From Scatophagus argus (lineage: Eukaryota; Chordata; Actinopteri; Scatophagidae): 64,000 bases of DNA. The DNA lies in the NCBI RefSeq assembly GCF_020382885.2, contig NC_058506.1:23155818-23219817 (forward strand). The letters are read 5' to 3'. The notes beneath the pieces are model-generated. The model did not search any database and was not told the origin of the DNA. It saw only the letters and a program-made list of their open reading frames with translations. A program made the position numbers and the translations under genes. Positions 10,032 through 54,700 of the stretch are shown one piece after another. Within the stretch, counting starts at the first letter, position 1, and the number at the start of each line of letters is the position of its first letter.

Positions 10032-10391
10032 TCCATCCATCCATCCATTTTCTATACCGCTTATCCGTCAGGGTCGCGGGGGAGCTGGAGCCTATCCCAG
10101 CTGACTACAGGCGAGAGGCGGGGTTCACCCTGGACTGGTCGCCAGTCAATCACAGGGCCAACACACAAAGACAAACAACCACACACTCTCACACTCACAC
10201 CTAGGGGGCAATTTAGAGTAGCCAATTAACCTAATGTGCATGTTTTTGGTATTGTGGGAGGAAGCCGGAGAACCCGGAGAAAACCCATGCAGGCACATGG
10301 AGAACATGCAAACTCCACATAGAAGGGCCCAGACCGGGATTCGAACCTGGAACCCTCTTGCTATGAGGCGACAGTGCTAACCACTGCACCT
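10032..10391 (-). mobile_element. tRNA-headed SINE, copy A (- strand)
   Basis: On the - strand the head carries a tRNA-like B box (ggttcgaatcc) and remains of an A box (gcagtgg). Then comes the family body (reverse of gactggcgaccagtccaggg and cagctgggataggctccagc) and a (GGAT)n tail. It is flanked by 12-bp direct repeats gaaagcggctca at 10020-10031 and gaaagtggctca at 10392-10403, one mismatch, as expected for target-primed insertion. Other copies are at 23.3, 35.3 and 45.3 kb, with partial ones at 30.5 and 49.3 kb. Confidence 0.85.
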
Positions 10392-11221: not shown

Positions 11222-14200
11222 TCAGTTGATCAGCTCCCACTCGGTGTCACTAATCAGCCTATAGTTGAGTCTGCGATATTCTTGGGGGTGTATTCTTCGC
11301 TGTCGCCAAACCTCTTCGTACAGGCTGCGAGTGACCGGCGGCAGCGGTGGGAAGCCAGCGATATGAGCCAGCGTCTGGCAGTAGTCCCACTGATCCTGCT
11401 GTATCATCAGCAGGTGGCGCTGCTGGACCCCCCGCTCCAACTTCTCCTGCAGCTCTTGCCGGACCTCGTGCTCCATCTGGGCCACAGGCGGCAAAGTGAC
11501 TGAGCCGTCCAACACGGCCAGGGCAAACTGGACCTGCAGAGACCAGACAGGAGAGCGTCACTTGGATGTCACTGATCTGAGATTATCTCAGCTCATCTTA
11601 TTAACGAGCAACACCGACACCCACCGTGAAACTGAACACTCACCTTCTTAATTATTTCACATTTACACTCAGAAGCTCGCAGAATAAAAACCACAAGACA
11701 GACAAACATCTGATAGAAAAGAGACTTAAAATGGTGAAAAAATGGTGGCTTGGATTAACCCCAACACCCATCCAGTCGAAGCCCTCCTTTCAGTTTTTTG
11801 ATGTTTGAGCGGCAGTGAAGCTAAAGGCAGCATCACCGTATTCAGGCTGGTGTTCCACAGGGCTTGACCGTTGGTCCCCTCCCATTACATGACAGACAAA
11901 TCAATGCAGCTCTGCGTCAAATCTCTGCTTTGGATAACTACAACTCTTCTCATCACCACCCAGCTGCTGCAAGAAAAGCTGATCCCGGTCGAGCTTGTGA
12001 TGACACTTACAGGACTGACTGTAATGACACCAGCTCTGTGTTTAAAGGACTTGTTTCCTCGGGATTCACTTTTTTCTTGATGTTTTTTAATTTAGATTTT
12101 TTGTGGAATGTAAATGTATTTGGTATTGTTTTGGATTTCTCTCTTCCTCGTTCTGTGTTCTCCCGCCTGTAAAACACTTTTTACCTTCTGATTTGTTAAA
12201 TTTGCTTCAGTTCAGCTCACCTGACAGTTGAAGGTGGGGAAGGGGCAGATCATCTTGCAGATGCTAATGAAGAATAGTGAGGGGAAGGCTGGGGGCATCA
12301 GGAAGCGGTACAGCGGAGACACCAGATGGTCCTGGATCTCCAGACCCAGCTGAGCCCCATCCAGGAACGGAAAACTGAAGTTGTAGCCCGTGCAGAACAT
12401 CAGAATATCAGCTGTGTCCACCGACCCGTCCTGGAAGAGGTCGTCTACATTTTAACATGTGGTTCAGTATTGTTTGTATGCAGAGCAGATGCAATAAAAG
12501 AAAGCAGGTCTAACCCAAACCCTGACAGATGTGCAGGAACAATCAGATCAGAGGAGTGATTTCAGAGAATTCCTTAGTTTTCTAGTGTTTATGTGTGTTC
12601 ATGTATTTTCTGTAAGGTTCAAACAAAATTCCAAACCTGTTGAACGTGTTGTGAACAGAACATCATGTTAATCAGGAAGTCAAAGTGAAATTAATGTAAA
12701 ATTCATCAACCAGGCATCAAATCAGTCAGGATTAACACAGGTGGAGGTGGAGGTGGATGGGTACAGATGGAGGTGGATGGGTACAGATGGAGGTGGATGG
12801 ATACAGGTGGAGGTGTATGGGTACAGATGGGGGCGGAGGTGGACGGGTACAGGTGGAGGACGATGGGTACAGGTGGGGGTGGAGGTGGACAGGTGGAGGT
12901 GGAGGTGGATGGGTACAGATGGAGGTGGATGGGTACAGATGGAGGTGGATGGATACAGGTGGAGGTGTATGGGTACAGATGGGGGCGGAGGTGGACGGGT
13001 ACAGGTGGAGGACGATGGGTACAGGTGGGGGTGGAGGTGGACAGGTGGAGGTGGAGGTGGATGGGTACAGATGGAGGTGGACGGGTACAGGTGGAGGTGG
13101 ATCGGTACAGACGGAGATGGAGGGGTACAGGTGGAGGTGGACGGGTACAGGTAGAGGTGGACGGGTACAGGTGGAGATGAAAGGGTACAGGTGGAGGTGG
13201 ATAAACAGGTATGGATGCTGTGAAAGTCATTCGTGTTGAGTCCACACAACCAAACAGGGTCAGACTTAATGCAGATCAGTGCTAATCTGACGGCAACCTG
13301 AAAGCGAAGACTGCCATCCTGGTCGACCGCCACCACTGGACTGGACTGTCGAATGCCAGGAGGAAGAGGAAAGGTGAAACGAGGAAGTCCGTGACTCAGA
13401 GTCACCTGGAGAGAAGAGACAATGTCAGAAAAAAATACACTGAAATCTGTCTCTTCTGTTGGCCTCTTTAACAAAGTGACACCTGCAAGAATTGCCTACA
13501 GGTGGCGCTACAGCAACACGTCTATTAGGTATCACTGGCTAGGGGGGGCACGCCTGCTCATCACAGTGCCCACATGACCAGTCGACCTAAGCTGCCTGTC
13601 TCTCTGGGCCATGTGTGTGTCTCCATGTGTGTGTGTGTGTGCATGTGGAGGGCCCAGTGGTTGGAAGGGGGATTCAAACCCAGAACCTTCATATTGCTGC
13701 CCGACATTAAAAACACATCTAAATGGTCCTGGTCCTGAGCCTGTCCAGACTGGGGTGTTCTCTACTGGCTGTTCTGTCAGTGATCTCGTTTTTCTGTAGG
13801 TCTCATTACTATCTGCTACGAAAGCAGAGAGGAGAGAGGAGTGAGGATGAGAACTGTCTGAGTCCTGATTTGAAAAATCAGGCGACTGAACTAAAAGGTT
13901 TGGTGTCAGGCGACATCGTCAGCGAGGTCGTCTGACACACCAGCTGTTACCTGAGCACCAACTTTGGCCAGCTCGATGGAGATGTCCAGTCCTGAAGCCT
14001 TGGCTCCCAGGACCACCACTGACTGACCCGAGAACGGCTCTGCGTACCTGTAGTCATGACTGTGGAGCACCTTTCCTACAAGCAGACAGCACTGACGTGA
14101 GCTTCATCAGAGCAGAGGCAGACAGGTTAGCTTAGCTTAGCACAAAGACTGGAAGCAGAGGGAAACTGTTAGTCTAACTGAACACTATCTTACCAACAAG

Positions 14201-16503: not shown

Positions 16504-16624
16504 GTCCAAAAACACATCTGAACATCCAGCAGACTTGAGAAGAGACAGAAAACAGAAAAGAGAAAACAGAGAAGATCACAAAGTTCAACCAAAACTTTCC
16601 ACTCAGATTACGTGATGACCTCTG

Positions 16625-17192
16625 CTCCACACTCACACACACTCACATACACACTTTCTCTCTCACACACACTCACATACACACTTTCTCTCTCACACAC
16701 ACTCACACACACACTCACATACACACACACTCACATACACACTTTCTCTCTCACACACACTCACATACACACACACTCACATACACACACACACTCACAT
16801 ACACACTTTCTCTCTCACACACACTCACATACACACACACACTCACATACACACTTTCTCTCTCACACACACTCACATACACACACACTCACATACACAC
16901 TTTCTCTCTCACACACACTCACATACACACACACTCACATACACACACACACTCACATACACACTTTCTCTCTCACACACACTCACATACACACACACAC
17001 TCACATACACACTTTCTCTCTCACACACACTCACATACACACACACACTCACATACACACTTTCTCTCTCACACACACTCACACACACACTCACATACAC
17101 ACTTTCTCTCTCACACACACTCACATACACACACACTCACATACACACACACACTCACATACACACTTTCTCTCTCTCACACACACACACTG
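16625..17192. repeat. CA/CT minisatellite
   Basis: Roughly 570 bp of alternating cacacactcacatacaca and ctttctctct modules, with period variants of about 22, 44 and 66 bp. Open frames across it (His-Thr-rich on +, Val-Cys-rich on -) are artefacts of the repeat. No gene. Confidence 0.92.
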
Positions 17193-17859
17193 AAACCTTT
17201 AATGATATAATTTAAGTAGGTATTTAGTTTGATTTGCAGTCAGCCCTCGACACCCACATCCTTGTCTCCTCTGTCCTCCATCCTTTCCTCTGTCCTCTGT
17301 CCTGTCAGCACTTTCACAGTCTGGAGGTTCAATAAAAACGTCTCTGTCTCTGATGTGTCCTTATCAGTCCAGTCACCTCCTGGGAAGCAAAACGTTTCTA
17401 AGAATCAGATTATCTCATTTACAGCATGTCTTCTGATGTGCCGCCATTAACACAGACAGGGAGACAGACGGGGAGACATACAGGTAAAAAGACAGGGAGA
17501 CAGAAGGAGAGACAGTGTCAAACTGCACTACATATTTAATAAAACAAACAGCAACTGCATTTCATAGGCCAAAGACAAGCATCTGTTTTTAACCTCTCAG
17601 AGTGTGTGACTCATTTGAAGACGGCTGGTGCATCCGGGGACAAGTGCTGCGTCCACAGATGGAGACAGCTGTCAGTGGCTCAGATTGTGTGCGTGTGCGT
17701 GTGCGCGGGGGGGGGGGGACACTGTGGAAAATGTCCACTCAATGTGAATACTGGACCAGCTTTTCATTTGAGTCCATACTGAGAGTTCAGGCGTCACAGT
17801 CTACATCTAAACGATGAAAATCAGAACTAGTCAAACCACAACAAGAGGACGTGAAGACA

Positions 17860-19192: not shown

Positions 19193-21529
19193 TCACTTGG
19201 TGGCGGCGTTCCCGTGCGGCGGCGGCTGCTGCTGCGGCTGCTGTTGCTCGGCCAGTGCCTGCTGCAACCGAGTCCGCTTCCTGGAGTAGTGCTGCCAGTG
19301 CAGCAGCTGCTGCTCGTCGATGAACTTGGCACACTGAGCGTTGACCAACTCCTTCCTGAAGTGTTCGTACTGCAGCAGCTCGAGCATGTGGAGACAGTGA
19401 GGATACCTGGCGGAGAGGAGAGGAGAGGAGAGGAGGAGGGGGGAAGAGGAGAAGAGGGAAGCAGAGGAGATGAGGGAAGGGGGAGGAGAGGAGAGAAGGA
19501 TGAGAGGAGAGGAGGAGAGGAGAGGACAGGAGATGAGAGGAGACGGGAGGAGGGGGGAGGAGACTAACATCTTCCATGGTGGATGACTCGACATTTGGTG
19601 TGTGTGTCAGCAGGATGTTGTATCAGTAAACTGTGTGAGTGTTTGTGGTGGTGAAGGATCATGTGATTGGTGACATACTTGAGGAACTTGGCGTACTCAG
19701 GCTCCTTCCAGTACAGCAGGTACTTCAGGTAGTTGATGAAGGGTCGTTCCCTCAGGACGCCTCTCTGAGCCAAAACTGAACACACAAACAAACAAACAGG
19801 AAGTCAGGCTCAGCAGACAAGACGGTTCTGTTTGACACAAAGCCTCTAAATCAGTAACAGAGTCACACTTTGTCTAAAGCGTCATGTTGGGACAGTAAAC
19901 AGTGAAGCTGATCACTTCTATCATATCTGCATATTTTATGGTCATTCTGTATACACTTCTTTTTTATTGTTTTTATTTTATTTTTAATTCTAGCTTATTT
20001 GTTACTTATCTGTTTCTAGCTTTAATGCTACTCTAGTAGCACATTGTGCACTGTCTTGTTATTTGTTCTGCTGCTGTAACAACTTAATTTCCCTCCGGGG
20101 ATCAATAAAGTCTTATTTTATCTTGTCTCACCTCTGAAGAGGCTGACAAGAGAAAACATTTTCACAGCCTTTTCAACTGGAACCACTGGACTCCTTAGAA
20201 CTCAGCTCAGAGGAAATCATTTTGCTCCTCCTTCAGACAAGGTTCTCTGCAAGCACAGAAACCTTGAGTGACTGAACAGGAACCAGAGCCAGAAGGACCA
20301 AGTGGCTCAGTCCGATTCTTAAATTGCTGTCTCACAGAACAGATTATAAAGTGTGACTGCTTGTGTATAAATCACTCTACAGCACAGCAGGTTCTTAGAT
20401 CTTTAGGAAGCAGTGGAGTTGAGCCTCAAGTCAGAACCAAACAGGATGAAGCTGCTTTTCAAGAATTTCCTTTCAGGGATAAATAAAGGAATTCTGATTC
20501 TGATTCTTTTAGCTGACAGGGAACCAACTTCCAGATGATCTGAAATGTTCCCCCATCTTCAGCTACAGTGTGAACTGAAGCTCTGCTGTTCCCTCTGACT
20601 GAACTTGGGGTAACCTAACCTAGTTGTTTTTATTTCTTTAAATGGATTTAAATGTGAATGACTTAATTGCCTGTGTAAAGCGCTTTGCGTATGAAATGTG
20701 CGGCCTTAAAAATGAAACAGCCGACGTGAATTCAAGCAGCAGAAACTCTTAAAGAACCACTACAGTTAGCTGGGAGTGAAGCTGCTGGCAGCCCTTCACG
20801 TGTGCAGGCTGATGAAGAGACAAACTGACACTGGAGGGGACGTCTCACTCACAGTTCAGGTAGTTTGGGTTGGCCAGGCACTGGACGAACTCCAGCTCTG
20901 ACTGGAACCGGTTCCTGGCCTGCTCCTCTGGACCAGGAAACACAACACAGATTTAAAATGATATTCTGAAACAAGGTATGATTCGGTGTGAAGACGTGAC
21001 AGAAATTTAGGACATGTGAATCATTATTTCACTAAATCAGGTCAGAAAAGAAGATCCCACACGTCTTCCTCAGTGTCACAGTTCATCAATAACACTAATG
21101 CTTCATTCCCTTTTGTTTTTCTCACCTTTGTAAAAGAAGTTCAGAGACATAAAAATGTTTTCTTCGTCGTGTAAACAACTGAATACCTGAACGAACTTTA
21201 GTCCTTCACTGATTTCACATCAGTCTTGGGTCATAATAAATACGACTGTCCTTAACACGATCATCTCTGCTGTAGTTTGAGCACTCACTTTTGTACTACC
21301 TCCAGAGCCATATTTATTTTACTTATCTTATTTTATTTTATTCTATTATTATGTTACTCGTTCTTACGTTTTATGTATGCACTGATCACTAAGACAAATT
21401 CCTAGTAATGTGAAATCTCTTCACTTATACGGCAATAAAGACAATTCTGATTCTGATTCTGACGGTATGCTAACAAGCTAACCCTAGCGAGTCATGTAAT
21501 TACTTTAGCGGCTACAAACCTGTTTCCAT
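19193..21529 (-). CDS. med31: Mediator complex subunit 31
   Basis: Four coding exons (- strand): 21529-21520, 20927-20853, 19775-19679, 19406-19193. Total 396 bases, 131 residues, the same length as human MED31. MED31 (Soh1) is a small, highly conserved nuclear subunit of the Mediator middle module that links transcription factors to RNA polymerase II. The signature is plain: ELEFVQCLANPNYLN, then FINYLKYLLYW, then HCLHMLELLQYEHFRKELV, then a basic helix with HWQHYSRKR, and a Gln/Pro-rich tail. The first exon codes only Met-Glu-Thr plus one base; the alternative acceptor four bases away would break the frame. A poly(A) signal (tttatt on +) lies at 18881-18886. Intron 3 holds a polypurine tract. 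A short ORF diverges from its 5' end. Confidence 0.96.
19413..19563 (+). repeat. Polypurine (GGAGA)n tract
   Basis: About 150 bp of almost pure G/A on the + strand inside the last med31 intron, close to the acceptor of exon 4, which on the - strand therefore has a very long polypyrimidine tract. Mirror symmetry of the ggagaggagagg units could allow triplex DNA. Confidence 0.85.
19932..20130 (+). repeat. LINE 3' end remnant in med31 intron 2
   Basis: AT-rich 3' region ending in aatttccctccggggatcaa then taaagtcttat, a truncated non-LTR tail. Another such tail (gggataaataaaggaattct) ends near 20512. Both lie within intron 2 of med31 (19776-20852). Confidence 0.5.
21425..21465 (+). repeat. LINE 3'-tail remnant in med31 intron 1
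   Basis: ggcaataaagacaattctga followed by ttctgat units. Confidence 0.5.
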
Positions 21530-22009: not shown

Positions 22010-22041
22010 TTATTTAAGACAAGACAACTTGTCTTAAATAA
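22010..22041 (+). terminator. Perfect 14-bp hairpin overlapping a poly(A) signal
   Basis: The arms ttatttaagacaag (22010-22023) and cttgtcttaaataa (22028-22041) pair perfectly around the loop acaa. AATAAA at 22037-22042 overlaps the second arm. It sits 15 bases after the stop of the divergent ORF. It may be a transcript 3' end structure or part of a mobile-element junction. Confidence 0.5.
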
Positions 22042-22053
22042 ATAAGCGTTGGG

Positions 22054-22082
22054 TGACGTATTGCGTATTACGTCACTTCCTG
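22054..22082. promoter_or_regulatory. Inverted CRE-like half sites plus an ETS-like site
   Basis: tgacgta at 22054-22060 and tacgtca at 22069-22075 form an inverted pair, followed by cacttcctg. They lie directly upstream of the LINE ORF1 and could be its 5' promoter or a host element. Function is inference. Confidence 0.3.
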
Positions 22083-22281
22083 TTCTTGCACTACTCATTC
22101 ACTTGCTAGCGTTTGGTGTTCGGTGGTATTGGTGTACTTCAGTCGACATATTTTGTGTTAGCTTTTACTGTGGCTGGTTCTTACAAATAAGTACACAAGC
22201 ACTTTAAGAAAAGTTTATTAACCGCACGATCATCTAGATTCTTTACGTTCTGTTTGTCGTTCAGCTTAGCTTAGTGCTAAC

Positions 22282-23154
22282 ATGGCTTCTTCCACTCACT
22301 CTCCCTCTGCCTCTCCCTCTCCCGTCTTCTGTAAGGTGTGTGAAATGTTTAGCTATTCCTCTGCCTCCTTTAGTGAGAGTGAGATGTGTAGAAAGTGTAG
22401 TTTATTCACAGCTTTGGAGGCGAGGCTAAGTGAGTTAGAGGCCCGGCTTCGTACTGTAGATCACAGTCCATTAGTCCCGACAGCTAGCCAGCAGCAGTTA
22501 GCCTGTGCGGACCGGCCTACTTTAGCTACTTTAGCTGATGTCAGTCAGGGAGGTTGGGTGGCGGTTTGACAGAAGCGTAGTCCAAAACAAAGGCCCGTGG
22601 TTCACCACCAACCGCGTCATGTGTCTAACCGCTTTTCCCCACTCAGCGACACACCCGCTGAGAAACCGACCCTGGTTATTGGCGATTCTGTTTTGCGATA
22701 TGTGAAGCCGACACCAGCGACCATAGTCAAATGCATCCCGGGGGCCAGAGCGGGCGACATAGAGGGCAATTTAAAGCTGCTGGCGAGAGATAAGAGTAAA
22801 TATGGTAAGATGATAATTCACGTCGGCGCTAATGACACTCGGCTACGCCAGTCGGAGGTCACCAAAGTTAATATTGAGTCGGTGTGTAATTTGGCAAAAA
22901 CCATGTCGGACTCCGTAGTGTTCTCTGGTCCCCTCCCGAATCTGACCAGTGATGACATGTTTAGCCGCATGTCATCGCTCCGTCGCTGGCTGTCACGGTG
23001 GTGTCCAGAAAACAACGTGGCCTTTATAGATAACTGGGAGACTTTCTGGGGAAAACCTGGCCTCATTAACAGAGACGGCGTTCATCCCACCTGGGGTGGT
23101 GCGGCTCTTATTTCTACCAATATGGCCAAGTTTATTAGACAACCAACACCCTGA
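22282..23154 (+). pseudogene. LINE ORF1 relic with zinc-finger, coiled-coil and SGNH hydrolase
   Basis: One frame from ATG 22282 to stop 23152-23154 (about 290 codons) is interrupted only by TGA at 22567-22569. The N-terminal half has CxxC...CxxC (CKVC and CRKC) followed by a heptad-like FTALEARLSELEARL coiled coil. The C-terminal half is an SGNH/GDSL hydrolase: GDS nucleophile block ([10 protein letters not shown]), conserved Gly (PGARAGDI), HVGAND, a SGPLPN stretch, and the catalytic DGVHP block. ORF1 proteins of this make-up are known from L2/CR1-clade LINEs such as zebrafish L2, where the esterase domain is associated with the RNA-binding ORF1p. No ORF2 (endonuclease/RT) follows; the copy is cut off after the stop and a - strand LINE tail starts 12 bases on. 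Confidence 0.8.
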
Positions 23155-23165
23155 CAACCAAAGTT

Positions 23166-23790
23166 GCAACAAATGAACTTGACTTGACTTGACTTGACTT
23201 AACTTTATTTATACAGCCCATTTTTACAAGCAGTTTGTCTCAAAGGGCTTAACATAACATCAGCAACATCCTCTGCCCTTCGACCCTCACATCAACTGAG
23301 GAAAAACTCCCAGAAAAACCTTTAACAGGGAAACACTGAGGGGCGGCACGGTGGTGCAGTGGTTGGCACTGTCGCCTCTGCATGTTCTCCCTGTGCCTGC
23401 GTGGGTTTTCTCCGGGTTCTCCGGCTTCCTCCCACAATACCAAAAACATACACATTAGGTTAATTGGATACTCTACATTGCCCCCTAAGTGTGAGTGTGA
23501 GAGTGTGTGGTTGTCTGTCTTTGTGTGTTGGCCCTGCGATTGACTGGCGACCAGTCCAGGGTGAACCCTGCCTCTCGCCGTAGTCAGCTGGGATAGGCTC
23601 CAGCTCCCCCGCGACCCTGACGGACAAACGGTATTGAAAATGGATGGATGGAAGGGAAACACTGGGAGAAACCTCAGGGTGAGCAACAGAGGAGGGATCC
23701 TTCACCCAGGACGGACAGACATGCAATGGATGTTGTACAGGCAGGAAAGCAGTTAACAACATGAGATGTGGGATAGATAGGGAATGTTCA
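23166..23790 (-). mobile_element. LINE 3' UTR fragment (- strand), interrupted by a SINE
   Basis: On the - strand the element ends in an aaataaagttaagtcaagtc-type tail at 23166. Its ggaaaaactccc and gggaaacactgggagaaacc blocks resemble the L2-like 3' region at about 50890-50930. The SINE copy B splits it at 23339-23652. Confidence 0.6.
23339..23652 (+). mobile_element. tRNA-headed SINE, copy B
   Basis: A box tggtgcagtgg is near the start; the B-box region is deleted, with the sequence jumping from gtcgcctc to tgcatgttctccctgtgcct. The body and ggatggatgg tail are intact. Flanking 12-bp direct repeats agggaaacactg lie at 23327-23338 and 23653-23664. Confidence 0.85.
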
Positions 23791-28500: not shown

Positions 28501-31500
28501 ACTTTGGTCTAAACACCCGCAGGACTGATGATCACATCAGCCTCAGCACCTTGTGTATATTTATATTAGCTAATGCTAACATGCTAAACTAAGATGGTGC
28601 ACGTGATAAACATTACAATTGCTTGCATTATCATTGTGATAATGCTCATGACACCTCTTCAACTACCTCACACTGCTTCATTCACAGTAGCCTCTTTATG
28701 CTAAAGCTAGCCTGACATTCAAGGCTAATAGGGCTGATGTAGGGTTTGAGTTCCTGACTTCAGACTGGTTTGGTCCTACTTCATTTACATTACTGAATCA
28801 CAAGTTTCAGTACAGCAGAATTAGACTAAAGCAATAAGAGCTAAAACATAAGTAAAAGTGCAAGAGTAGAAAACAGGAGAACATGAGAGAGTGAAGGGGT
28901 GTTAGAGGGTTAGGGTTGTTAGGATGATCCTTTAGTGTGAGAGGTTTACTTACATAATCTTCAAGTTGAATTGCAAATAAAATGTTTTTAAAATGTATGC
29001 CTTGAACAGCAGTGAAAAACTGAGCAGAAAACTGCAGTAGCCAATGAGAGCGAGCTGAAGCATCATCTACCAGATGCTGATGTTAGCTTGTAGCAGCAGT
29101 TTGCACTTGCATTGCTGATCCTGACAAATTCTTTTAGAATAAAATCTGCGTGGTGGATTGTAATCTGGAAGACGTTTGCTCGAGTTTGACCAAAACAGTT
29201 CAGACTCAAGGCTTATGTCAATTCAGTTGTTGGTAACTAAAACAGATTAAAATCTTTGTGATTTTTTTTGATGACAAGAACAAAAACAGAGTTTTTGTTA
29301 ACTAAAAACTGAGATCTAAAAAAGGTAAAAAACCAACGATACAAATACTCCGATGTGAATTCTGTGCCTATTTAGAAAGTAATTATCAGTCAGTGTCTGC
29401 ATATCACAAACTCCTCAGACTTTTCACTGAACTGAAAACATGATGTGGACTTAAAAGGATTTACCAGGACAGGACAGAAATTATTGATTTTTCTCTCTTC
29501 TGAGAATTTTCTTTAATTTCCAAGTCGATGTGTTGAATAAAAACATGACCTGTCAGGACAAACAGATCAATGCTTTGTGTGACCCAGCTGGCAGCTGATG
29601 AATGAGTGTGTGTTGATGTGAAAGCAGGTGACAGGTGAGGGGGTGGAGCCCGCTGAGACGAAGACTGAGATTTCCTATGGCCAACTTGATTGGAAATGAC
29701 CTCAGACCATCTTGTCCTGGTGAGGTGTGGTATGAGGTATCTCATATCTCTCAGTTGTTTAGTCAATCAAACAGTTTCTAGTGTCGTGAAAATCAATCAG
29801 TGCTATATATATAAGTAGTTAAGGATAAAGGCGTCATCTTCTTACAAGATCCATGAAAAATATGGACAGAAACAGGTCTGGATGTGTGGATGAGATGTTT
29901 TCAAATACCAGCTCTTAATCAACATGTTCCTGACAGCCTGGATGACTAATAAACTGAACCTAACACTGAGGTGTATGAATGGTGATGTGTCTGCTTAGTT
30001 TACAAAGTGACAATGAACTCAGCAGAACAAAAGGATTTCCACTTTTACATGTCACAGCTGCTGCAGCCTCTTTTAAGGAGGTCTCATCCAGCATGTGGGA
30101 GATGGTCCCTGAAAGTTTCAATAGGAAAGCTAGAAACCAAAAATATTCTATGAAAAGATCAAATGTCATCTTTGAGTCACTTGTTCAAGTTTGTTTTCAC
30201 CTCATGGTGGTTGCCACTGGCTCATTACTGCCCCCTGAGGACAGCATACACCTGCTGGTACATGGTGGCTGGTGAGAACTGCAGTTGTAGTGGGCGTCTT
30301 TCCTGTTCTCAGCTGATTTCAATAAATTACTGCTTGTGGTCTGGTTTTGGATCGCAGACGTGCAGAATCTGAATGGTAACGTCTAAACACTTCCCACATT
30401 ATTGGTTACAGTAACATTGAGCTTGGAATCTGTTCACACTTGAAAATGTTTCATGAAATCTGCCGTGAATAAATCTGTCACATCTGTTTCATGAATTAAT
30501 TTTCTATACCGCTTATCTGTCAGGGTCACAGGGGGCTGGAGCCTATCCCAGTTGATTACAGGCGAGAGGCGGCGTACACTCTAACCTGAAAATGATTTTA
30601 TTGCTCAAATTAAAGTTACTTAATTCAGCTCTGATTCTGCTGTTGGTTGATCAAAAAATGTGATTCTGTCATTTACAGTAAAACTTTTTTTCAGTGGAGA
30701 TGACTCAGAGTTATAAAAAAGTCTTAAAGAAGATGTGAAGACTGTGAACCTGTGGTACGTTTCATTCACTCAGTATAGCTCTTCTCTTCTTTTTTCCTAC
30801 AATTATGGAAATTGTAAATTGTTTTTTATCGATGCCTAGCTCTGTTTTTCACTATTCACTATTCACTAACCCTAACCCTAACCCTAACCCCTCTGCTGTA
30901 ACAATGTGAATTTCCCCATTGTGGGACCGAAACGAAAATCTTATCTTATCTTATCTTATAATAATGACAGCCTCTGCTGAAGAGTGCAGTTCATATAGCG
31001 ATCGTTTTTGGCTCAGCTCACTAAAGTTTACTGTTTGTTCTCAGGACACGTTCGTTCTGTTTGTTCTTCACCTCTGGTTCCTGTGTGTTCATGGATTTTG
31101 CCCCCAGGTCTGTGTTAACCTGCATCTGGGGTCAGTCAGGCTTCTGAATCTTTTTTTCCACTTTCCATTAATGCAGGATCAGCACTGACTGACTCACACA
31201 GATGTGACAGATTTATTCACGGCAGCGTTTCTGTTAAACAAGAACTCCAGACTGCAGTTTAAAGAAGCTTTCAGTCTAATGATTGAATCTACTGCAGTGC
31301 ACACTGTGTCCACAGAAACATACGGAGGAAACGTTTACGTCAGTGGAAAACAGAAAACTATAGTCCGATTATTATGTCCACAGTTTGTGTTAATCCATGA
31401 AGAGTTTTATTTATATCCCATTTTATTACTGACTCAGACTTGGCCCAGCTGGTGCTTCTCTTTTATAACCATAACATTCAAGTCACAGCAGTGTATGTTC

Positions 31501-34500
31501 AGCAAAACATCTTGCTGTTGTGAAGGTATCTCAAGGATCCTTAAAGAATTTTCTGACAAAGTAGATGAAAAAGTCTGCTGTGATATAAAACCCATTTTTT
31601 TAACCCATTTCTGAAGATGTGACTCTGTTTACTGATCTAAACAAAGAAGGAAGTCAGAAACATAGAAAGTTTTTGCTTAGTTTGTTAAGCCCCGAGCTGA
31701 GCTTTTAGGTACTCACTCGGCCTTGGCATTGAAAACGTGAGTGGCCCAACCATCCATGAAACGCGGGTCTCGTGTGAACCACAGCACCACCATGAGGATG
31801 AAAAGTGCGAGAACGCTGACCTCTGCGTAACTCATTGGGCCCAAACGCCGATGTTCATCCCTGATCACTTCATACGCCCTTTGCTCCTTCTCTGACTGGA
31901 CTGTCCTGCAACCCCACGTCCTCCGTAGGCTACAAGGAATGAAGATCAAAATGTACATTTACCACAAATTAAATTACAAAACCACAGCTTTAATGTGATA
32001 ATGCCATCTGCATGTAAACGATCACACAGTAATCAGTAACATCTGAGGTTTTGGAACTTTACTACGATGCACAGGAAGGTCAGGGTGAAACTGAGTGCTT
32101 TCTGTCAAGCAACTCACTTGCAGCCAATATAGAGAAACTGGAGCCAGAACCAGGCTAGGATCAGCATCAGTATCATGGTGGGGAAGGCGAACGCAAACCA
32201 GGACGCAAAGTTGATCACGTCACCGTTCTGAGGAAAAAGTCTATGAGAAAGAGCAGACGTGAAGTCACAACAGCTTACAGATTTTAAGTTTTTGAATGAA
32301 CAAATGTGAGTCCTGGTGGCTTCTGCTGCTGCAGAAGAATTCAGTTCATTTCAGAAAACACTGATGATTGATTGATAAAAAAAAAAAATTCTGTTTGTTT
32401 TTGGAGCAGTCATGTTTTAGCACTCACTGGTTCATCTGCCCGACCAGAATCAGGTTCGGTCCGGTTCCTGTCAGAGTAGCGATCCCTCCGATGCTGGCAG
32501 CATAGCACACACATAGCAGGAGGCCTTTACTCATCGTCCTCCTCCTCTTCTCCTCTTCATCACTGAGCTGCTCCTTCTCTATCTGACAGGAGGTGTTCTC
32601 CATACACACCACCACTACCACACACAGTTTGTGGAGACAGTTAAAGGACAGATTTCCACACTTCCAATCGTGATTGTGTTACACATCCTGCATCTTTCCT
32701 AAACTGACAGATGGTGGACTCACCAGGACCGTGGCTGGTGCTGTCTGATGGGGGTTTGTCCTGTGGTGTAGGTTTGACTTTGTCCACCTGACCCTGTGAC
32801 AGTACTTGGTGCTCAGGGTACATGTTGTCTGGGGGGTTGCTGATCTTCTCTGAATTGCCTTGTGGTAACATGAGCCCGTTCAGACCTGGAAATGAACATT
32901 CAGAAGTTCAGTGTCCGTCGTCTCTTTAGTCTCTTAATAATCCACAGGCTTTCAGCGTGAGTGAGCCAAATGACATGACGGAGAGAAGACTGGAGCTTCT
33001 GACTCTGGTCATCTTTTGATATTTGATGTTGGTTTTGAAATACTGCATTTGTGCTTTGTTGCTTTGTAAAGTTGTTCCTATCATTCAATCCAAAGTCCAA
33101 AGTCAACTAACATTCATTCGAAAGCCTTATTCTTAGTCTCTCACATCCTACCTGGAAAACAGTACAACCACTTTTTATTGCTGTATTGTACCGCGCTCCT
33201 GGCCCATACTCTGAATTTCCACTGGAATTTTCAGAGTTCCTATAGAGTCACATCCTTAAAACTAATAAAGTAATTATTATGGGCGATTTCAACATCCACG
33301 TGGACGATGGTAACGATCACCTTTGCGCAGCATTTATTTCACTATTAGATTCAATTGGCTTCTGTCAGTGTGTACATAAACCCACTCACTGCTTCAGTCA
33401 CACTCTTGACCTTGTTCTGACATATGGCATTGAAGTAGAACATTTAATACTCTTTGAACAAAATCCTTTTTTATCTGACCATTGCTTAATAACTTTTTAG
33501 TTTGTACTATTTGACTTCATACCACCAAGAAAAAACTCCTACACTAGATATCTGTCTGACAGTGCTGTGGCTAAATTTAAAGAAGCAGTTCTATTGTCAT
33601 TTACTTCAGTATCATGTCCCCATACGAGTGAACAATACAATAATCCCTCTCAAATCAACCATTTCGTGGACAGTGCTGCAAGCTCATTAAGGACAACGAT
33701 AGACTCTGTTGCCCCGCTAAAAAAGAAACGCATAAAGCAAAATAGACTTGCACCCTGGTATAATACAGAGCTTTGCAAATTAAAGCAAAATACCTGAAAA
33801 CTTGAAAGGAAATGGCGTTCCTCCACGCTTATTGAATTTCACTCAATCTGGCAGTACAGTCTTAGTATCATGCCTGGTGTTTTTTTGTTATGCTTTGTCT
33901 TTTGATTTCAGTCCATGTGCCATGTTTCATGTTTGTCTTGTCATGTGTTTCCATGTTTTATGTTCAAGGGTTATGTCATGTCCTGTTTTATTTTGAAAGC
34001 GTCTCTTCCCCTGTGTGCCCTGTTTTCATGTAGCTTTGCTTTTGGTTTTCTCGATTGCTTTCTCCCACCTAATGTGTGTCACCTGTGTCTCATTGTCGTG
34101 TCTATTTAGTCCTTGTCTTCCCAGGTACCTGGGTCAGAGTGTTATTTTTGAATGTCTTCATGTTATGCCAGGATCTGTTTTTTTCTATTCGCCATGACAT
34201 GTTAAGCCAGGAAGTTATGCCACAGATTTTCTTCATAGATCCCACGCTACTGAAGGTGTGTGTGTGTTTTTTTGAGTTTTGCTTTAATTAATTAAAGATT
34301 TTGTTCAGACCTCTGCCTCGCATCACTGCTTTTTTTGACTCTACATCAGGGCTCAACCTTTTCTGCGTCAGCGACACTGACCTACTTGACACTTAGATTA
34401 TATAGGAAGGTCCTACTGACTGCCAGAGCAGCCTGTTACTCGAAATTAATTGAGGATAACAAGCATAATCCCAGGTTTCTCTTCAGCACTGTAGCCAGGC

Positions 34501-37500
34501 TGACAGAGAGCCATAGTGCTATCGAGCCTTATGTCCCTGTGACCCTCAGCAGCAATGACTTTACAACCTTTTTTAACGACAAGATCTTAAACATTAGAGA
34601 CAAAATTCAGCACCTACTGACCTCAGCTGGTACTGATCAACATCCAAACACTGGAACCTTAGAAACAACAGTAGAAACAGATAATCATCTTCACTGTTTT
34701 TCTCCTATTGATCCTCATCAGTAATATTCACTTATATATTCATCCAAGCCAACAACATTCCTCTTAGACCACATCCCTACTAAGTTACTCAAAGAAGCTT
34801 TACCCTTACTTAGCACCTGTCTATTAGACATGATCAATCTGTCCCTAATAACAGGCTATGTACCCCAGTCCTTTAAAATAGCTGTAGTCAAACCTCTCCT
34901 TAAAAACACACACTTGATCCAGAGGTTTTAAGCAACTATAAACCAATATCTAATCTTCCATTTCTTTTCAAGATCCTTGAAAGAACAGACGCCAATCAGC
35001 TATGTGACTTTCTTCGTAATAATACCTTATTTGAGAATTTTCAATCTGGCTTTAGAGCTCATCATAGCACAGAAACAGCATTGGTCAAAGTCACAAATGA
35101 CCTCCTAATGGCATCAGACAAGGGATTTATCTCTGTCCTTGTACTGTTAGACCTTAGTGCTGCATTTGACACCATTGACCACTCTATATTACTGCACAGA
35201 TTGGAACACCTAATTGGCATTAAAGGAACTGCATTAAGCTGGTTTCAGTCTTATTTATCAGATCGATCTCAATTTGTTCATGTTAATTATACATCATGGG
35301 CGGCACGGTGGTGCAGTGGTTAGCACTGTCGTCTCATAGCAAGAGGGTTCCAGGTTCGAATCCCGGTCTGGGCCCTTCTATGTGGAGTTTGCATGTTCTT
35401 CCTGTGCCTGCGTGGGTTTTCTCCAGGTTCTCCGGCTTCCTTTACCAATACCAAAAACATGCACATTAGGTTAATTGGCTGCTCTACATTGCCCCTAGGT
35501 GTGAGTGTGAGAGTGTGTGGTTGTCTGTCTTTGTATGTCAGCTCTGCGATTGACTGGTGACCAGTCCAGGGTGAACCCGCCTCTCGCCCGTAGTCAGCTG
35601 GGATAGGCTTCAGCACCCCCACGACCCTGACAGATAAGCGGTATAGAAAATGGATGGAATTATACATCATCCACACTCACAAAAGTTTGTCACAGAGTTC
35701 CCCAAGGTCCTGTCCTTGGGCCAGTGTTATTCATCCTTTATATGCTCCCTATCAGTGATATTATTAGGAAACACTCCATACATTTTCATTGTTATGCAGA
35801 TGACACACAATTGTACTTGTCAATGAAACCAGAAGAAACAAATCAGCTAGTCAAACTTCAGGTATGTCTTAAAGACATAAAAAACTGGATGACTTGCAAT
35901 TTTTTACTTCTAAATTGAGACAAAACTGAATTTATTGTTCTGTGCCCTGAACACCTTAGAAACAAATTATCCAGTGATATAGCAATGCTAGATGGCTTAG
36001 CCGTGGCCTGAAGCTCCACTGTAAGGAATTTAGGAGTTATCTTTGACCAGGACATGTCCTTTAACTCGCACATAGCAAATATTTCAAAGACTGCATTCTT
36101 TCACCTTCGCAATATTGCAAAAAATAAGGCACATTCTGAGTCAGAGAGATGCAGAAAAATTAGTCCATGCATTCATTACCTCCAGGCTGGATTGTTGTAA
36201 CTCCCTTCTATCAGGCTCCCTTAATAAATCTGTAAAGACTCTCCAGCTAATCCAGAACGCTGCAGCAAGATTACTCCCAAGAACCAGCATGAGAGATCAT
36301 ATTTCTCCTGTACTGGCTTCTCTACATTGGCTACCTGTAAAATTCAGGATAGATTTTAAAATTCTCCTCCTCACATATAAAGCCCTGAGCGGTCAGGCGC
36401 CATCCTGTCTTAAAGAGTTTATAGTTCCCTATTATCCCACCAGAGCTTTGCGTTCTCAAAATGCAGGGGTACTTGGGGTTCCTAGCGTCCTCAAAAGCAT
36501 ATTGGGAATGAGAGCCTTTAGTTATCAAGCTGCATTTCCAGTATTTCTAGTATTATTACTGCTGCAATGCATTTCTGCTTCTGTGCTCCTTCTCTCACGC
36601 TCCACCCCCCTCTCCCTCTCTCTCTTTGTCTGTCTATCTTTCTCTCTCTCTCTCTTTCTTTCACTTATCGTACCTTTCTCCAACATCTTTGGAGTAGCAG
36701 TTTGTGGGATGCTGCTAGTTTTCTCCTCATGTTCTCGGTGCACAATGACACTCTGCCTCTGGTTCTGCAGGGAGGGTTCAGGGTCTGCGTTGCAGTTGAG
36801 CTGATCCAGGATGGCCTGGACAATGGGAACCATCATGGCAGTGGTGGCTGTGTTGCTGATCCACATGGACAGGAAGGCGGTCACTCCCATGAACCCAAGC
36901 ATCAGCCTGGGAGACAGATCAACATCAAAAACCTCTTCAGCAATTGATTAGAGAACCAGAACCCCTGATGATTTAAAACCAGTTAAGGTGTAAAGTCAAC
37001 CAGTGTGACCAATGAACTTTGACACAAGTCTGTGGGAAGTTAGCTCCAAGATGACCGTGACCATGAAGACTCATATTAGCTTTGGCAGAGTATTAGACTA
37101 GAAATAATTTTTTGAATGAGGACTGTGGATTTTGTCCTCCAAAATCGAGTGATTACGGTGTGTGCATATGAACCTTAAGATAACATATGAACCTATAAAA
37201 CACTGTTTTTCATTGACACGTTCTTGAAATTGTGTGTTTCGTTGGTACTGTGTACCCATGCTAGCGTGGCTCCAGAGACAGCAGTTTGTCCGACTTTGGG
37301 TCAACATGAAAAATCTTGATGACAACATTCTTAGTCTCCACAGGACGAGCCCTAAGGACTTTGGTCATCAGGGGTTTCCTCTTAATGTATGTTTCATTAA
37401 GAGCCTTACAGTAAGTACTTGTATTGTAATCCTGTTGTACAGTGAAGCGTACTCACAGGGCAGGTCGGACCCCCACCAGCAGCAGAACTCTGAGTGCAAT

Positions 37501-45287: not shown

Positions 45288-45647
45288 ATGGTGGTGCAGT
45301 GGTTAGCACTGTCGCCTCATAGCAAGAGGGTTCCAGGTTCGAATCCCGGTCTGGGCCCTTCTATGTAGAGTTTGCATGTTCTCCCTGTGCCTGCGTGGGT
45401 TTTCTCCGGGTTCTCCGGCTTCCTCCCACAATACCAAAAACATGCACATTAGGTTAATTGGCTACTCTAAATTGCCCCTAGGTGTGAGTGTGAGAGTGTG
45501 TGGTTGTTTGTCTTTGTGTGTCAGCCCTGCGATTGACTGGTGACCAGTCCAGGGTGAACCCCGCCTCTCGCCCGTAGTCAGCTGGGATAGGCTCCAGCTC
45601 CCCCGCGACCCTGACGGATAAGCGGTGTAGAAAATGGATGGATGAAT
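45288..45647 (+). mobile_element. tRNA-headed SINE, copy D
   Basis: A box tggtgcagtgg, B box ggttcgaatcc, complete body and ggatggatg tail. It starts directly at an (ATA)n run (45270-45287), so the target-site duplication is not clear. Confidence 0.88.
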
Positions 45648-48753: not shown

Positions 48754-51700
48754 ATGAAGCTGTGTCTTCTTCTTTTCTTGCTTTGTCTCTGCTGTCCAGG
48801 ACTGACAGTAAGAACTAAGTGTTTCTGTTCATTGGCTGTTTAATGGACCAGATATAACCAAACTTTTCAGAAAGTTGTCTGTCTGTCCTCCTGTCTTCAG
48901 GAGGGGCCCAGTGTAGGAAGTCCTGTCAACGAAGAGAAGGCCACAGAGGAGGGTGTCCACAGCTGTGGAGGGAGGAGGTGGTTCAACCCTGATGAACGCA
49001 GGTCAATAGGAGGTGCCATAGAACGACTGGGTTTACAGCTTCTGGAAAAGCTTTCTATAGGTCCACTGCAGCCCAATGTTGTCCTGTCACCTCTCAGCCT
49101 GACCTTTGCCCTTGCTCATCTCACCCTGGGTCAGTTCGAGTTTAATTTCGTTTTTCATAAAAATCAAGAAATCAGTATTCAGCCAGTTGTACGGCGGGAT
49201 TTTTCACTAATTCACATTTCACATTTGGTTGTATACACAACAAAGGTACGACACCAGGTCTTGTTTCCATGTCCTCATTAGGCTCAGACACACTTAATAA
49301 AGTCTAAACATTTCAACTGTGGACCACGGAGCAGTGGATAGCATTGTTGCCTCATAGCAAGAGGGTTACATTGCCCCTATGTGTGAGTGTGTGGTTGTCT
49401 GTCTTTGTGTGTCAGCCCTGTGACTGACTGGTGCCCAGTCCAGGGTGTTCCCTGCCTCTCGTCCATAGTCAGCTGGGATTGGCTCCAGCTCCCCGCGACT
49501 CTGATGGATAAGCTGTATAGAAAATGACTGACATTTCAACTGCCAACAAATGTTTTAATGGCATGCTTTGCATAAAGTCCAACATGAATGCTGGGCTGAA
49601 CCTGACAATCTGATACCCTTCCTGATACCCCATACCCTTCCTCTGATTTCTTCCATAGTGTCACCCTTGATTAATTAGTTTCTGGCGACAGAACATCATC
49701 GTAACATCACTGGGCTGCTAGCATGCCTGCACATTTTAAGTCTGATGTCATAAAACATCAAAGCAGTTCTGCCTCAAGAAATGCCGTCACATGTTCACAA
49801 GTTACTCCATTAATTGTTCCTGCACATTTCTTAGAACAATTTGTTGAGGCTGATTTTTTTTTTCTCTCAGGTGCTCGCAATGAGACAGAGAAGCTGCTGC
49901 TGAAGAGCCTCCATGCTGACAGTCTAACATGTTACCATCACATCCTGGGAGGCCTTCTACCTCACTTCAGAAACACATCGTTGGAATTGGCGACACGCAT
50001 GTACCTGAGACCAGGTGTGTGCTGATGAGTGTTAATGATTGGTTTTAACAAGATTGGTTTAAGTTTTGCCTTATCCATCTTTTCCATTTTCTCTCTTTTC
50101 TCTCAGGATTTGAAGTGAAGGTTTCTTTTGTTGAGGACTCTCTGGCCAGGTATCAACTCCTACAATGCAAATACACCCCGAGCTGCACACATTTCATTTC
50201 AGACTGAACTGGTTGAACTCTAACAGATTCTTTAGGTTCTGATTTTCATGTATATGCACCAAGGAAGTAAAACAACAATACAATTTTTTCCTCTTCAGGT
50301 ACCAATCACAGCCTGTCCCTCTGGTCTCTGTGGATGAGGTCAACCAGTGGGTGGAGAATGCCACCAATGGTCACATCCCCAACTTCTTGCAAAGTATTCC
50401 ACATGATGTGGTGCTTATGCTCACAAATGCTGTGTATTTTAAAGGTGAACCATTGCCCTGAAGTCCCCTCAGTAAAGTCCTTTAAACAGTCAAAGTGAAG
50501 ACAGGCAATCAGTGCACAACGCAGAACAGATGTTTCAGCAGTAATGTGAGTGGCAGGATTTCAGAGGAGTGATGACAGATCAGTTAACTTCTATGAAATC
50601 TCAAATGTGTACCTTCTCAGTTATCTGTTTACGGAGTAACTAAACCCCTAAACCACTTTTTTCAGTTGAAAATCAATTTAAATAGGTACTTAGTAGGGTT
50701 ACTGATTGATTCAGATTCAAAACCTGATTTTCTAGAGGAAAGTAGTTGGATTTTCTGTTTTGTGTTATAAATATGCGTAGCAATTCAATTGAATTTTTAT
50801 TTATATAGCATCTTATACAATCAAAATTGGCTCTAGGTGCTTTACAGAAATCCAGAGCCTGAACCCCTGAGCAAGCAGACAGTGGCAAGGAAAAACTCCC
50901 TTTTAACAGGAAGAAACCCTGAGCAGGACCCGACTCACAAGGGAGAACCATCCTGCTGATAGTCGGCCAGGTGAAGGAGGAGAAGAAGAGGTAGACAGGA
51001 CAGAGAGGATGAAAGAGAGAGAGAGAGAAACATACATGCAATAAACATCATATATTACAAAGGACAAACATGACAGGTTGTTATAAATGGAATTCTGAAG
51101 ATTATGTATTGGTTTTTTAGATGATATGTTGTTCAAGTTAGGTCTAATAGCACTACACAGAAGAACGACATGGGCAGATGTTGACAGTAGACACTGGGTT
51201 TGTCACTGGGTTTGTCAGAGGATGCAGTTCAACATGTAGATCTGGATGGAGAGAAACCTGCAGAAAGATACAGAGAGAGAAAGAAAGGGAGGGAGAGACA
51301 CAAAACTACGAGGACAACTGGACACACAGTTAGTGACAGAAAATAATGAATTATATGTTGATCTGATGAGGGAAGAGGAGGGGAGAGGAAGAAGAGGAGA
51401 GGAGGTAGGGGAGTAAAGATGGTGGTGGTGTTGTGGGGGTGGGGGAACTGCCCTATAGCAGCGTAGCTATGATAGTCACACCTGTTCTACCTGCGGCTGT
51501 CTGCCAAGAAGTGACTGTAACTATGGCTACCAGCCCTACACACTTTGTTTGAGGCTAACTATACGCTTTACTAAACAGAAAGGTTTTAAGTCTGGTGTTA
51601 AAACTGGAGGTGGCGTCTACCTGTCGAACCCAGATTGGCAGCTGGTTCCACAGCAGGGGTGCCTGATCGCTAAAGGCTCGTCCTCACATTCTACTTTTAT

Positions 51701-54700
51701 GAAATCTGGGAACTGCAAGTAAACCTGCACTCTCTGATCTGAGTGTTCTATTGGGAATATATGGGACTATTAGATCCTGCAGGTATGGTGGGGCTAGTCC
51801 ATTTAGGACCTTATATGTAAGTAGGAGAATTTTAAAATCTATTCTGAATTTTACCGGAAGCCAGTGAAGAGAAGCTAAGATGGGGGAGATATGATCCCTT
51901 TTACTGATTCCTGTCAAAACTCCAGCTGCTGCATTCTGGATCAGCTGCAGGCAATTAATAGAGTAATTTGGACATCCTGTTAATAATGAGTTGCAGTAGT
52001 CCAGCCTAGAAGTAACAAAAGCATGGACAAGTTTTTCATCATCACTCTGAGAGAGGACACTCCTAATTTTAGCAATATTATGGTGGTGAAAGAAGGCGGT
52101 CTAAGAGATCTGTTTAATATGGTGGATAAATGACACATCCTGATCAAAGATAACGCCGAGGTTCCTCACAGTCATACTGGAGGCCAAAGTAATGCTGTCC
52201 AGAGAGAGAATATTATCAGCTGTCCTAGTTCTGAGATGTTTGGGGCCAAAAACAATGACCTTAGTTTTGTCTGAGTTTAATAATAAAAAATTGGAGGTCA
52301 TCCAGTCCTTTATGTCCTTAAGACATGCCTGGAGCCTGGCTAATGGCTCTGTTTCTTCAGGCTTTACGGATAAGTACAACTGAGTGTCATCAGCATAACA
52401 ATGAAGGTATATAAAGTGGCTGCAGTGTTGTTGAGAAAGCAATCAATGTCTGCAGTAATATTTGAATCAGTACGCTCTCAATTGCAGTCTACAGGTTGAA
52501 ACGTGCTATTACAACTGAATTCTATGAGTGGCTGAGCTGGAGGCAGATGACATTTTGGAGGCTGCTTATGTCACCAACCACCCTATCACCAACCTGAACC
52601 TCATGAGTTCAGGTTGTCAAAAACTGATTTTACTCACTTGGTAATGATGCTGTGTTTCTCAGGTGAATGGCAGACACGATTTGACCCCATGGTGACCTCT
52701 AAGGGAGTGTTCTATCTGGACAACCAGAACTCTGTGTTAGTGGACATGATGAAGTCTGCCCAGTACCCGCTCCGCCTGCTGGATGATCCAAAACTAGAAG
52801 CACAGGTAACACCGGATTTGGCATGGGTTCATCAGTGATGTTGCTGATACTGTCCATAACCACAAGAGGAATCAACACTTTTCACTCCAATGCATGATTT
52901 TTCTTTTTATCTGTATTCAAAAACAAATATGTGTGTCTCGCATCTTTATGTCTCTCTTTTGTGACCAAATGTCTCAGTTCAAAGAGGACAGTCTGGATTT
53001 TGAACCCTAACCCTCATGAATTCTAATGGAAGAGTAATTTTACTTAGGAGTGATTAAGATTTTGTTTGAATCTGACAAATATGACTTATGATTTTTTTTA
53101 AATCAAATCTGTGGTCATAGCAGAGTTAAGGTTGCATCAAGACCCTGGACATCCTATGTTAGTTTGCATTGTAGGATCCCCAGGACAAGCTGGAAGACAT
53201 GGTTGGCCTGCTTTACTTAGCCTGCTGCCACCGATGTTTAAAGCTTCTTGCCACTTTGACTGAACAGCCAGTCATAGACAAATGTTTTCAGTGACCATGG
53301 TTGAAATAAGTTATGTTTTAAAAATGTTTTTTGTCTTTTTTAATTTTGTTCCTTTTACCTTTTAATCACCATGTATTCCAACAGTCTGTTGAGAGTCAAA
53401 AGTGTGAACTTGAGCAACATAACTGGGACTCAAGTCAGACTTAAATCACAAGTTGATGACTTTAGACTTGACAGAATCAACTCAATTTGGACTCTCAAGA
53501 TTTCTCTTGAACTTTAGCCTTTTGACTTGAAAATAATCAATCACAATTTAAAAAGCCACCAAACAATTACTTTCATTCATTAACTGAATCAACTAACGTT
53601 AACATTATCTGTCCAAATTTAACATCCACCATGCACCAAATGCAGGGGGATTTTCTATTTGGACTATCTCCACACTGGCAGTTTGTACCAAAACAGTAAC
53701 ATAAGAAAACACTGCTGAGAGTATCTACCGTGTTTTGGTGTCGTTTACGGGCAGCTGCTTCTGTCCATTGCTGTCTGTGTTGGAGTTTGATACACATAGC
53801 AACAAGGGCTCCATGGTGCAATTAAGTGCAGCTGGTATACAAAGAATAAATGAATTGAGGCATGGAAAAAGTCTGGATCAGAATTTACAGACAAAGATGC
53901 CACAACTTTCCACTTTGTTCAGCATTTGTAGTTGCACATAGAAGTATAAGTCTATCAAGTCTGCCTTAACTTGGTTTTTGACTTGGGAGTGGAGTACAAA
54001 GACTTGACACATACTTGTGTCAATGACCTTTTGAGTTAGTCCATATGAAATGGAACAAAAAAGGTTCTTTTTTCTTATACAGGTTGCCAGTTTTCCCTTC
54101 AAGGGAAACACCAGCTTCATAATTGTCATGCCCTTGCCAGGCAGAGGAAACGTGTCATCAGTGCTTCCCAAACTGAACATCTCAGACCTTTATGGACGTC
54201 TACCTCAAGAGAAAATAATGCAGGTCAACTTACCCAAGATGAAGCTACAGTACCGCCAGGAGCTCCAAGAAGTCCTGACCAGCATGGGTGAGAATATTAG
54301 CTTCACTAAAGGGAAGAAACAACAAAGGGTGATACACAGCACTAAAGGGCAACATGTTGTGTAGTGTGAGATTTGACAATGGTCAAACACCTTGGACACA
54401 TTATGGAGACATAAGAAGTGGTCAGTTTACAGTAGCCTAAATGTTCCAATCTGGGGAATCAGTGTGATACACTGATACTCTGAAGCGTAAGTAGGCACAT
54501 GTACTGACACCGCTGGTGTGTAGGCTTAATTTTTAAACAACTGGTGAGTATTAATACTGCCTGCTGTACTTTGAACAAGAAATGAGACAACTTCTCTTAA
54601 AGCACACCTTTGATAAAATAAATCACCCAGACTCCCAACAATCCTTTCCTTCCTTGTTGGTGCATTGAACCGTGAGTTTAACTTTCTGTGTCTGCATAGC

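Follow-up and report, generated by a model that had tools for sequence, protein, structure and literature searches.

The interrupted reading frame at 22282-23154 of the window (the whole 64,000-nt stretch of Scatophagus argus DNA analysed here) very probably belongs to a recent copy of an L2/CR1-group LINE whose insertion site is the tail of an older, inverted family member and which lost its ORF2. The locus looks like an ordinary recent, already damaged LINE insertion and not like a host enzyme under selection. Its parts are listed in Table 1.

Table 1. Parts of the LINE insertion and of the resident inverted copy, in window positions.
Feature	Position	Strand	Basis or remark
Remaining tail of the resident inverted LINE copy: AAGTT and two GTCTT units, read on the minus strand	22016..22030	-	Tail unit as in L028
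Left 5-bp target-site duplication, AACTT	22026..22030	.	Repeated at 23201-23205
Fifteen extra nt at the 5' junction	22031..22045	+	Family copies begin at 22046
5'UTR of the young LINE copy, from the family 5' end (GCGTTGGG)	22046..22281	+	Alignment to fetched copies
LINE ORF1, 291 codons including the final stop, one internal stop	22282..23154	+	302 codons in intact copies
CxxC-x15-CxxC motif, putative zinc finger	22330..22398	+	Pattern match
Short leucine-rich stretch LEARLSELEARL, putative coiled coil	22414..22449	+	Judged by eye from the translation
Point of the 33-nt in-frame deletion relative to the family	22542..22543	+	Alignment to family copies
Premature TGA, private among the copies compared	22567..22569	+	Not present in the 19 copies compared
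SGNH esterase domain, seven of seven named residues	22672..23151	+	Pfam, 4c1b alignment
Nine filler nt at the ORF1-tail junction	23160..23168	+	
LINE 3'-terminal ~12 nt (two mismatches by eye) and 5-bp tail repeats	23169..23200	+	18 of 20 fetched copies align here by their 3' end
Right 5-bp target-site duplication, AACTT	23201..23205	.	
Older 5'-truncated resident copy, same-family 3'UTR, split by 23339-23652	23201..23766	-	
SINE-like insertion in the resident copy	23339..23652	.	12-bp exact direct repeat flanks, 23327-23338 and 23653-23664; related stretches 10033-10310, 35390-35658 and 45373-45644

An esterase-bearing ORF1

The earlier note, made from the sequence alone, had described one frame of about 290 codons broken only by a TGA at 22567, and this description was borne out (291 codons with the final stop). 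The C-terminal half of the frame matches PF13472 (Lipase_GDSL_2) in Pfam above the gathering score of that entry (E 2.9e-9), and it also matches PDB 4c1b (E 1.3e-32), the ORF1 protein esterase of the zebrafish LINE ZfL2-1, to which it is homologous over 156 aligned residues (59 of them identical). All seven residues named for the ZfL2-1 esterase in the excerpted text of PMC3905857 (Ser, Gly, His, Asn, Ser, Asp and His) are kept, namely the catalytic triad, two oxyanion residues and the transposon-specific His191 and Ser228 (ZfL2-1 numbering). At the gating positions 144, 194 and 281, in contrast, the window esterase has Val, Ala and Val as opposed to Ile, Thr and Leu in ZfL2-1. Judged from sequence, the esterase match is far beyond chance and the frame is a LINE ORF1 with an SGNH esterase, of type IV by its esterase residues; the close known system is the type IV ORF1 of L2 and CR1 lineage LINEs, as described in the excerpts of Metcalfe and Casane (PMC4120745). 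The conserved SGNH blocks and the assignment to an esterase-bearing ORF1 of the L2/CR1 kind, both proposed earlier, thus hold.

The CxxC/CxxC finger that had also been noticed corresponds to a C-x2-C-x15-C-x2-C pattern at ORF1 residues 17-39, whereas no such motif is described for ZfL2-1 in the excerpted text of PMC3905857; the N-terminal half of the window ORF1 gave no Pfam match above its cut-off. An AlphaFold2 model of the esterase half, computed from the single sequence, had a mean pLDDT of 43 and was set aside.

The start codon proposed for the C-terminal half did not survive inspection: the codon at 22597, given as ATG, is GTG. The in-frame ATGs 3' of the internal stop lie at 22810, 22903, 22957, 22969 and 23122, that is, all of them behind the codons for the catalytic Ser (22687) and the Gly (22741), and the C-terminal half is therefore without an ATG start for the whole esterase. 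A 33-nt in-frame deletion after 22542, private to the window copy, had been overlooked. Given this deletion and the stop, the window copy probably yields no working ORF1 protein.

Relatives across the assembly

The 570.7-Mb assembly (48 contigs) was searched with the window frame, and 40 of 539 candidates, picked by likeness to ORF1, were scored (499 were left unscored). The resulting 41 rows comprise the window copy and 39 others, one copy occupying two rows, so that the search for near-identical copies recommended by the earlier note did find them. Twenty of the 39 were fetched with their flanks, and for the remaining 19 we took 601 bases each around the ORF1 end. The ORF2 start comes after the ORF1 end in every one of the 39 (20 + 19); many copies with ORF2 attached, which the earlier note had named among the signs of a plain recent LINE fragment, are thus what the scored set contains. 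ORF1 is intact (906 nt, final stop only) in 18 of the 20 fetched copies, the exceptions being L009, which is frameshifted, and L028, which has a different 5' part, and 12 of the 20 carry one open ORF2 frame of at least 1,047 codons. The ORF2 of L010, the only copy scanned, matches the PF03372 endonuclease (E 5.9e-16) and the PF00078 reverse transcriptase (E 6.8e-36). The family as a whole would therefore be an autonomous L2/CR1-group LINE, by its ORF2 with endonuclease and reverse transcriptase behind ORF1.

The copies share their ends. Seventeen of the 20 fetched copies align from window position 22046 or 22047 (L020, L024 and L028 start later), and most other copies are preceded by a CTCCT-type sequence, which the 15 extra nucleotides of the window copy do not resemble. 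The family 3' end is AAATAAAGTT, followed by short tandem repeats and not by poly(A): GACTT in 18 of the 19 listed copies, GTCTT in L028. A 3' hairpin is weakly predicted in the family (z -1.85 for L010, -1.89 for L028). Treating L028 as a sister subfamily was considered and dropped (its first third is not homologous, the remainder is like the other copies), as was a family-wide duplication length from 16 other copies, in which the shared strings (0-8 nt, overlapping the tail) were too mixed.

Relatives outside the genome were sought in viral contigs and genome contigs, in phages by tblastn and in plasmids by blastn, and none was confirmed; tblastn for a further ORF1 within the window gave nothing above chance-level matches.

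The distribution of the copies is uneven. Thirty of the 39 scored copies lie less than 1 Mb from a contig end, where 8.3% would be expected given the lengths of the 19 contigs involved, and the window copy lies ~124 kb from one. A control L2-type ORF2 fragment (40 of 1,326 candidates scored, n=39) was also enriched there, with 19 copies within this distance, 15 not and 5 unknown; the difference between family and control is not significant (p 0.08, or 0.13 with a C10 cluster collapsed). In this genome, young LINEs seem to be concentrated near chromosome ends. At C10:24302703-24447487, five copies (L037, L039, L041, L042 and L045) have the same variant base behind ORF1, which suggests a segmental duplication near a chromosome end.

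A resident inverted copy and its empty site

Directly downstream of ORF1 lies an inverted 3'UTR piece of the same family, which the earlier note had also overlooked. When the flanks of the young copy are joined at 22030/23206, they read as a LINE 3' end without a break and, behind it, a tail of the GTCTT type. The alignment of this empty-site join to other copies crosses the joining point without gaps; L028 has 6 mismatches to it in 143 nt, and 18 other copies have 7-8.

The two pieces differ in divergence. Over 245 nt, the inverted 3'UTR mismatches 19 of the 20 fetched copies at 12-15 sites (L014 has no aligned 3'UTR), whereas the window 5'UTR and ORF1 together have 20-26 mismatches in ~1,113 nt to the 17 copies aligned over the whole stretch; the shorter alignments gave 19 in 988 columns for L020, 17 in 947 for L024 and 11 in 617 for L028. 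For scale, in the same 245 nt L010 has 1-5 differences to 18 other copies, and in ~1,160 columns of the 5' stretch it has 5-17 to the 16 others aligned in full. The inverted 3'UTR was the more diverged piece in Fisher tests on three of the 19 copies, L010 (p 0.0007), L009 (p 0.013) and L028 (p 0.017). In light of the empty-site join, the AACTT on both sides and the greater divergence of the resident copy, we conclude that the young copy very probably inserted within the tail of an older relative in inverted orientation. The duplication is based on the resident tail running through the join and not on a direct-repeat scan, in which the best score of 8 was equalled or exceeded at 343 of 1,252 control placements.

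ORF1 and the inverted 3'UTR are of one family and stand in opposite orientation, as they might had they arisen in one insertion event by 5' inversion. Measured against the piece order expected from the twin-priming model, though, the order here is wrong, the tail of the inverted 3'UTR continues on the far side of ORF1, and a single event does not sit well with a 3'UTR piece more diverged than ORF1. We also count against it that 5' inversions were not seen for ZfL2-1 in either of the cell lines tested, according to the excerpted text of PMC4245944, and give such an origin almost no chance.

At the 5' junction, positions 22031-22041 of the extra sequence are part of an inverted copy of the flank 22010-22023 (14-nt arms, 4-nt loop). 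Akin to the window copy, ZfL2-1 insertions in DT40 cells have duplications of 5 bp, and about half of ZfL2-2 copies carry extra 5' nucleotides, both according to the excerpts of PMC4245944.

Fate of ORF2

Where L010 has ~4 kb from the end of ORF1 to its terminal nucleotides, made up of ORF2 and nearly all of the 3'UTR, the window copy has none of it. The absence of an ORF2 beside ORF1 had been reported correctly: what follows ORF1 is filler and tail, and no relative of the L010 ORF2 was found within ~10 kb, so that the copy is not an autonomous LINE. Such relatives lie in the window at 33.1-36.5 kb (67-72% DNA identity over four pieces), at 51.6-52.5 kb on the minus strand (92% over 855 nt, with its own internal gap) and, more weakly, at 1.4-2.1 kb. 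The first is a decayed L2-type ORF2 (33114-36530; RVT_1 E 2.7e-13 at 34904-35320), broken at ~33860-34330 (by eye) and by a SINE-like repeat at 35298-35658. The second belongs to an internally deleted, 5'-truncated LINE (51154-52478, minus strand), in which the ORF2 end is joined to an earlier ORF2 piece and the 3'UTR is only 71% like that of this family, as opposed to the 92% of the ORF2 end.

The first seven nucleotides of the filler at the ORF1-tail junction equal the family 3'-terminal AAAGTTG (by eye), and the filler in this respect resembles repair with a templated filler.

HAL1 (half-L1) is a multi-copy lineage, and the window copy is like it in being a LINE piece with ORF1 and without ORF2. 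The earlier note had accordingly raised the possibility of an ORF1-only element, in which an ORF1 RNA with its own tail is copied in trans by the ORF2 protein of full-length relatives. The 5'UTR, ORF1 and tail repeats do lie together between the 5-bp duplication, as if inserted in that form. However, with up to 3 mismatches allowed, the ORF1-tail junction has a single match in the 570.7 Mb, so that the many copies with a common junction expected of a HAL1-like lineage were not found and no ORF1-only lineage is seen; the 39 other scored copies all run on into ORF2; and the family 3' region upstream of the last ~12 nt is missing, including the weakly predicted hairpin, which makes a mobile ORF1-only RNA less likely. 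ORF1-only copies with other junctions could be among the 499 unscored candidates. We regard a HAL1-like origin as very improbable.

Private changes and retention by the host

Outside gaps, the window ORF1 is 98.2-98.7% identical (11-16 differences) to 19 copies, which among themselves have 0-16 ORF1 differences (mean 8.2); L028 (87.1%) was excluded from this comparison because its first third is non-homologous. A young copy without ORF2, one of the readings first offered, agrees with these values. Of the seven substitutions private to the window copy relative to the 19, two are synonymous and five non-synonymous, the stop being due to one of the five; the rate ratio of 0.76 does not differ from one (p 0.67), seven changes having little power. 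The earlier note had proposed an ORF1 held by selection and had named neutral changes as evidence to the contrary; with n=7 the changes are indistinguishable from neutral, which bears out the latter only weakly and lends selection no support. The singletons in the 19 copies comprise 19 non-synonymous (one a stop) and 11 synonymous changes (ratio 0.53), and dN/dS was 0.31 against a related-family ORF1 piece in L023 (130 codons, one stop skipped; the piece itself is decayed). This piece (L023:7108-7497) comes from a second, related esterase-ORF1 family with 58% amino-acid identity and one stop, and lies near a copy of the first family.

From these comparisons the source lineage appears constrained, while the window copy gives no sign of a constraint of its own, at low power. 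In a simple decay model with assumed indel rate and ts/tv weights, at most one stop and no frameshift at 1-3% divergence have a probability of 0.54-0.14. We attribute the nearly intact ORF1 to the youth of the copy and to purifying selection on the source lineage, not to host retention.

The LINE copy has a Med31 gene on one side (minus strand; Pfam Med31 E 5.5e-11 in frame 19196-19606) and, by our reading of the frames, an SLC13-like gene on the other (minus strand, from ~25.5 kb). A domesticated hydrolase, that is, an ORF1 piece beside med31 retained by the host as an enzyme, would fit the seven kept residues, the CpG observed/expected ratio of 0.81 for 22040-23176 (mean 0.35 over 315 windows) and the AG at 22645-22646, which closes a run rich in pyrimidines and is a candidate splice acceptor by eye. 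As opposed to these, the frame is interrupted, with no ATG between the stop and the catalytic Ser, and carries the 33-nt deletion, the private changes stand at 5 non-synonymous to 2 synonymous, and near-identical intact copies exist elsewhere in the genome. As for the CpG ratio, it is reached by 8 of the 315 windows, varies within the LINE copy (1.16 in the 5'UTR, 0.43 in 22282-22569 and 0.91 in 22570-23154), and may reflect youth or the promoter of a neighbouring gene. The Texim genes of fish are, according to the excerpted text of PMC4021074, SGNH hydrolases related to CR1 esterases and associated with mobile DNA, with introns and no associated reverse transcriptase; both they and the window ORF1 are fish SGNH hydrolases, the latter being an intronless LINE ORF1. 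We hold domestication to be extremely improbable.

Two further kinds of repeat were seen in the window. A SINE-like family has members 95 to 84% alike at 10033-10310, 23339-23652, 35298-35658, 45290-45644, 49380-49526 and 30499-30582, of which the copy at 35298, within the L2-type ORF2, has tRNA-like promoter boxes and an ATGG-type end (by eye). Long open frames in several frames at 12672-13495 and 16522-17212 consist of tandem repeats and are probably not genes.

Discussion

Target-primed reverse transcription is the established insertion route of LINEs, and the young copy would have entered the resident tail by this route with a 5-bp duplication. Since RNA and target carry similar tail repeats, priming between the tails is plausible. 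The loss of ORF2 and of almost all of the 3'UTR may go back to reverse transcription itself, through a template jump, or to a subsequent deletion whose repair left a short templated filler; least likely, the RNA already lacked them. After insertion, the copy would have gained the stop and the 33-nt deletion. Against this explanation count the two mismatches of the tail piece to the family end and the unlikeness of the 15-nt 5' extra sequence to the CTCCT-type sequence in front of most other copies.

An unlikely version of these events is that the LINE machinery inserted an ORF1-only RNA (5'UTR, ORF1, ~12 terminal nt and tail repeats) without the 3' hairpin, primed by the resident inverted tail. 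If this were true, tail-to-tail pairing would be able to replace the 3' stem-loop that is thought essential in stringent LINEs.

The locus offers a clean view of a self-targeted insertion, with an empty site in an older tail, a 5-bp duplication and a snap-back 5' junction, and illustrates how a frame that sits beside a gene, has no ORF2 and looks like a conserved enzyme can prove to be a young LINE copy from which ORF2 has been lost.
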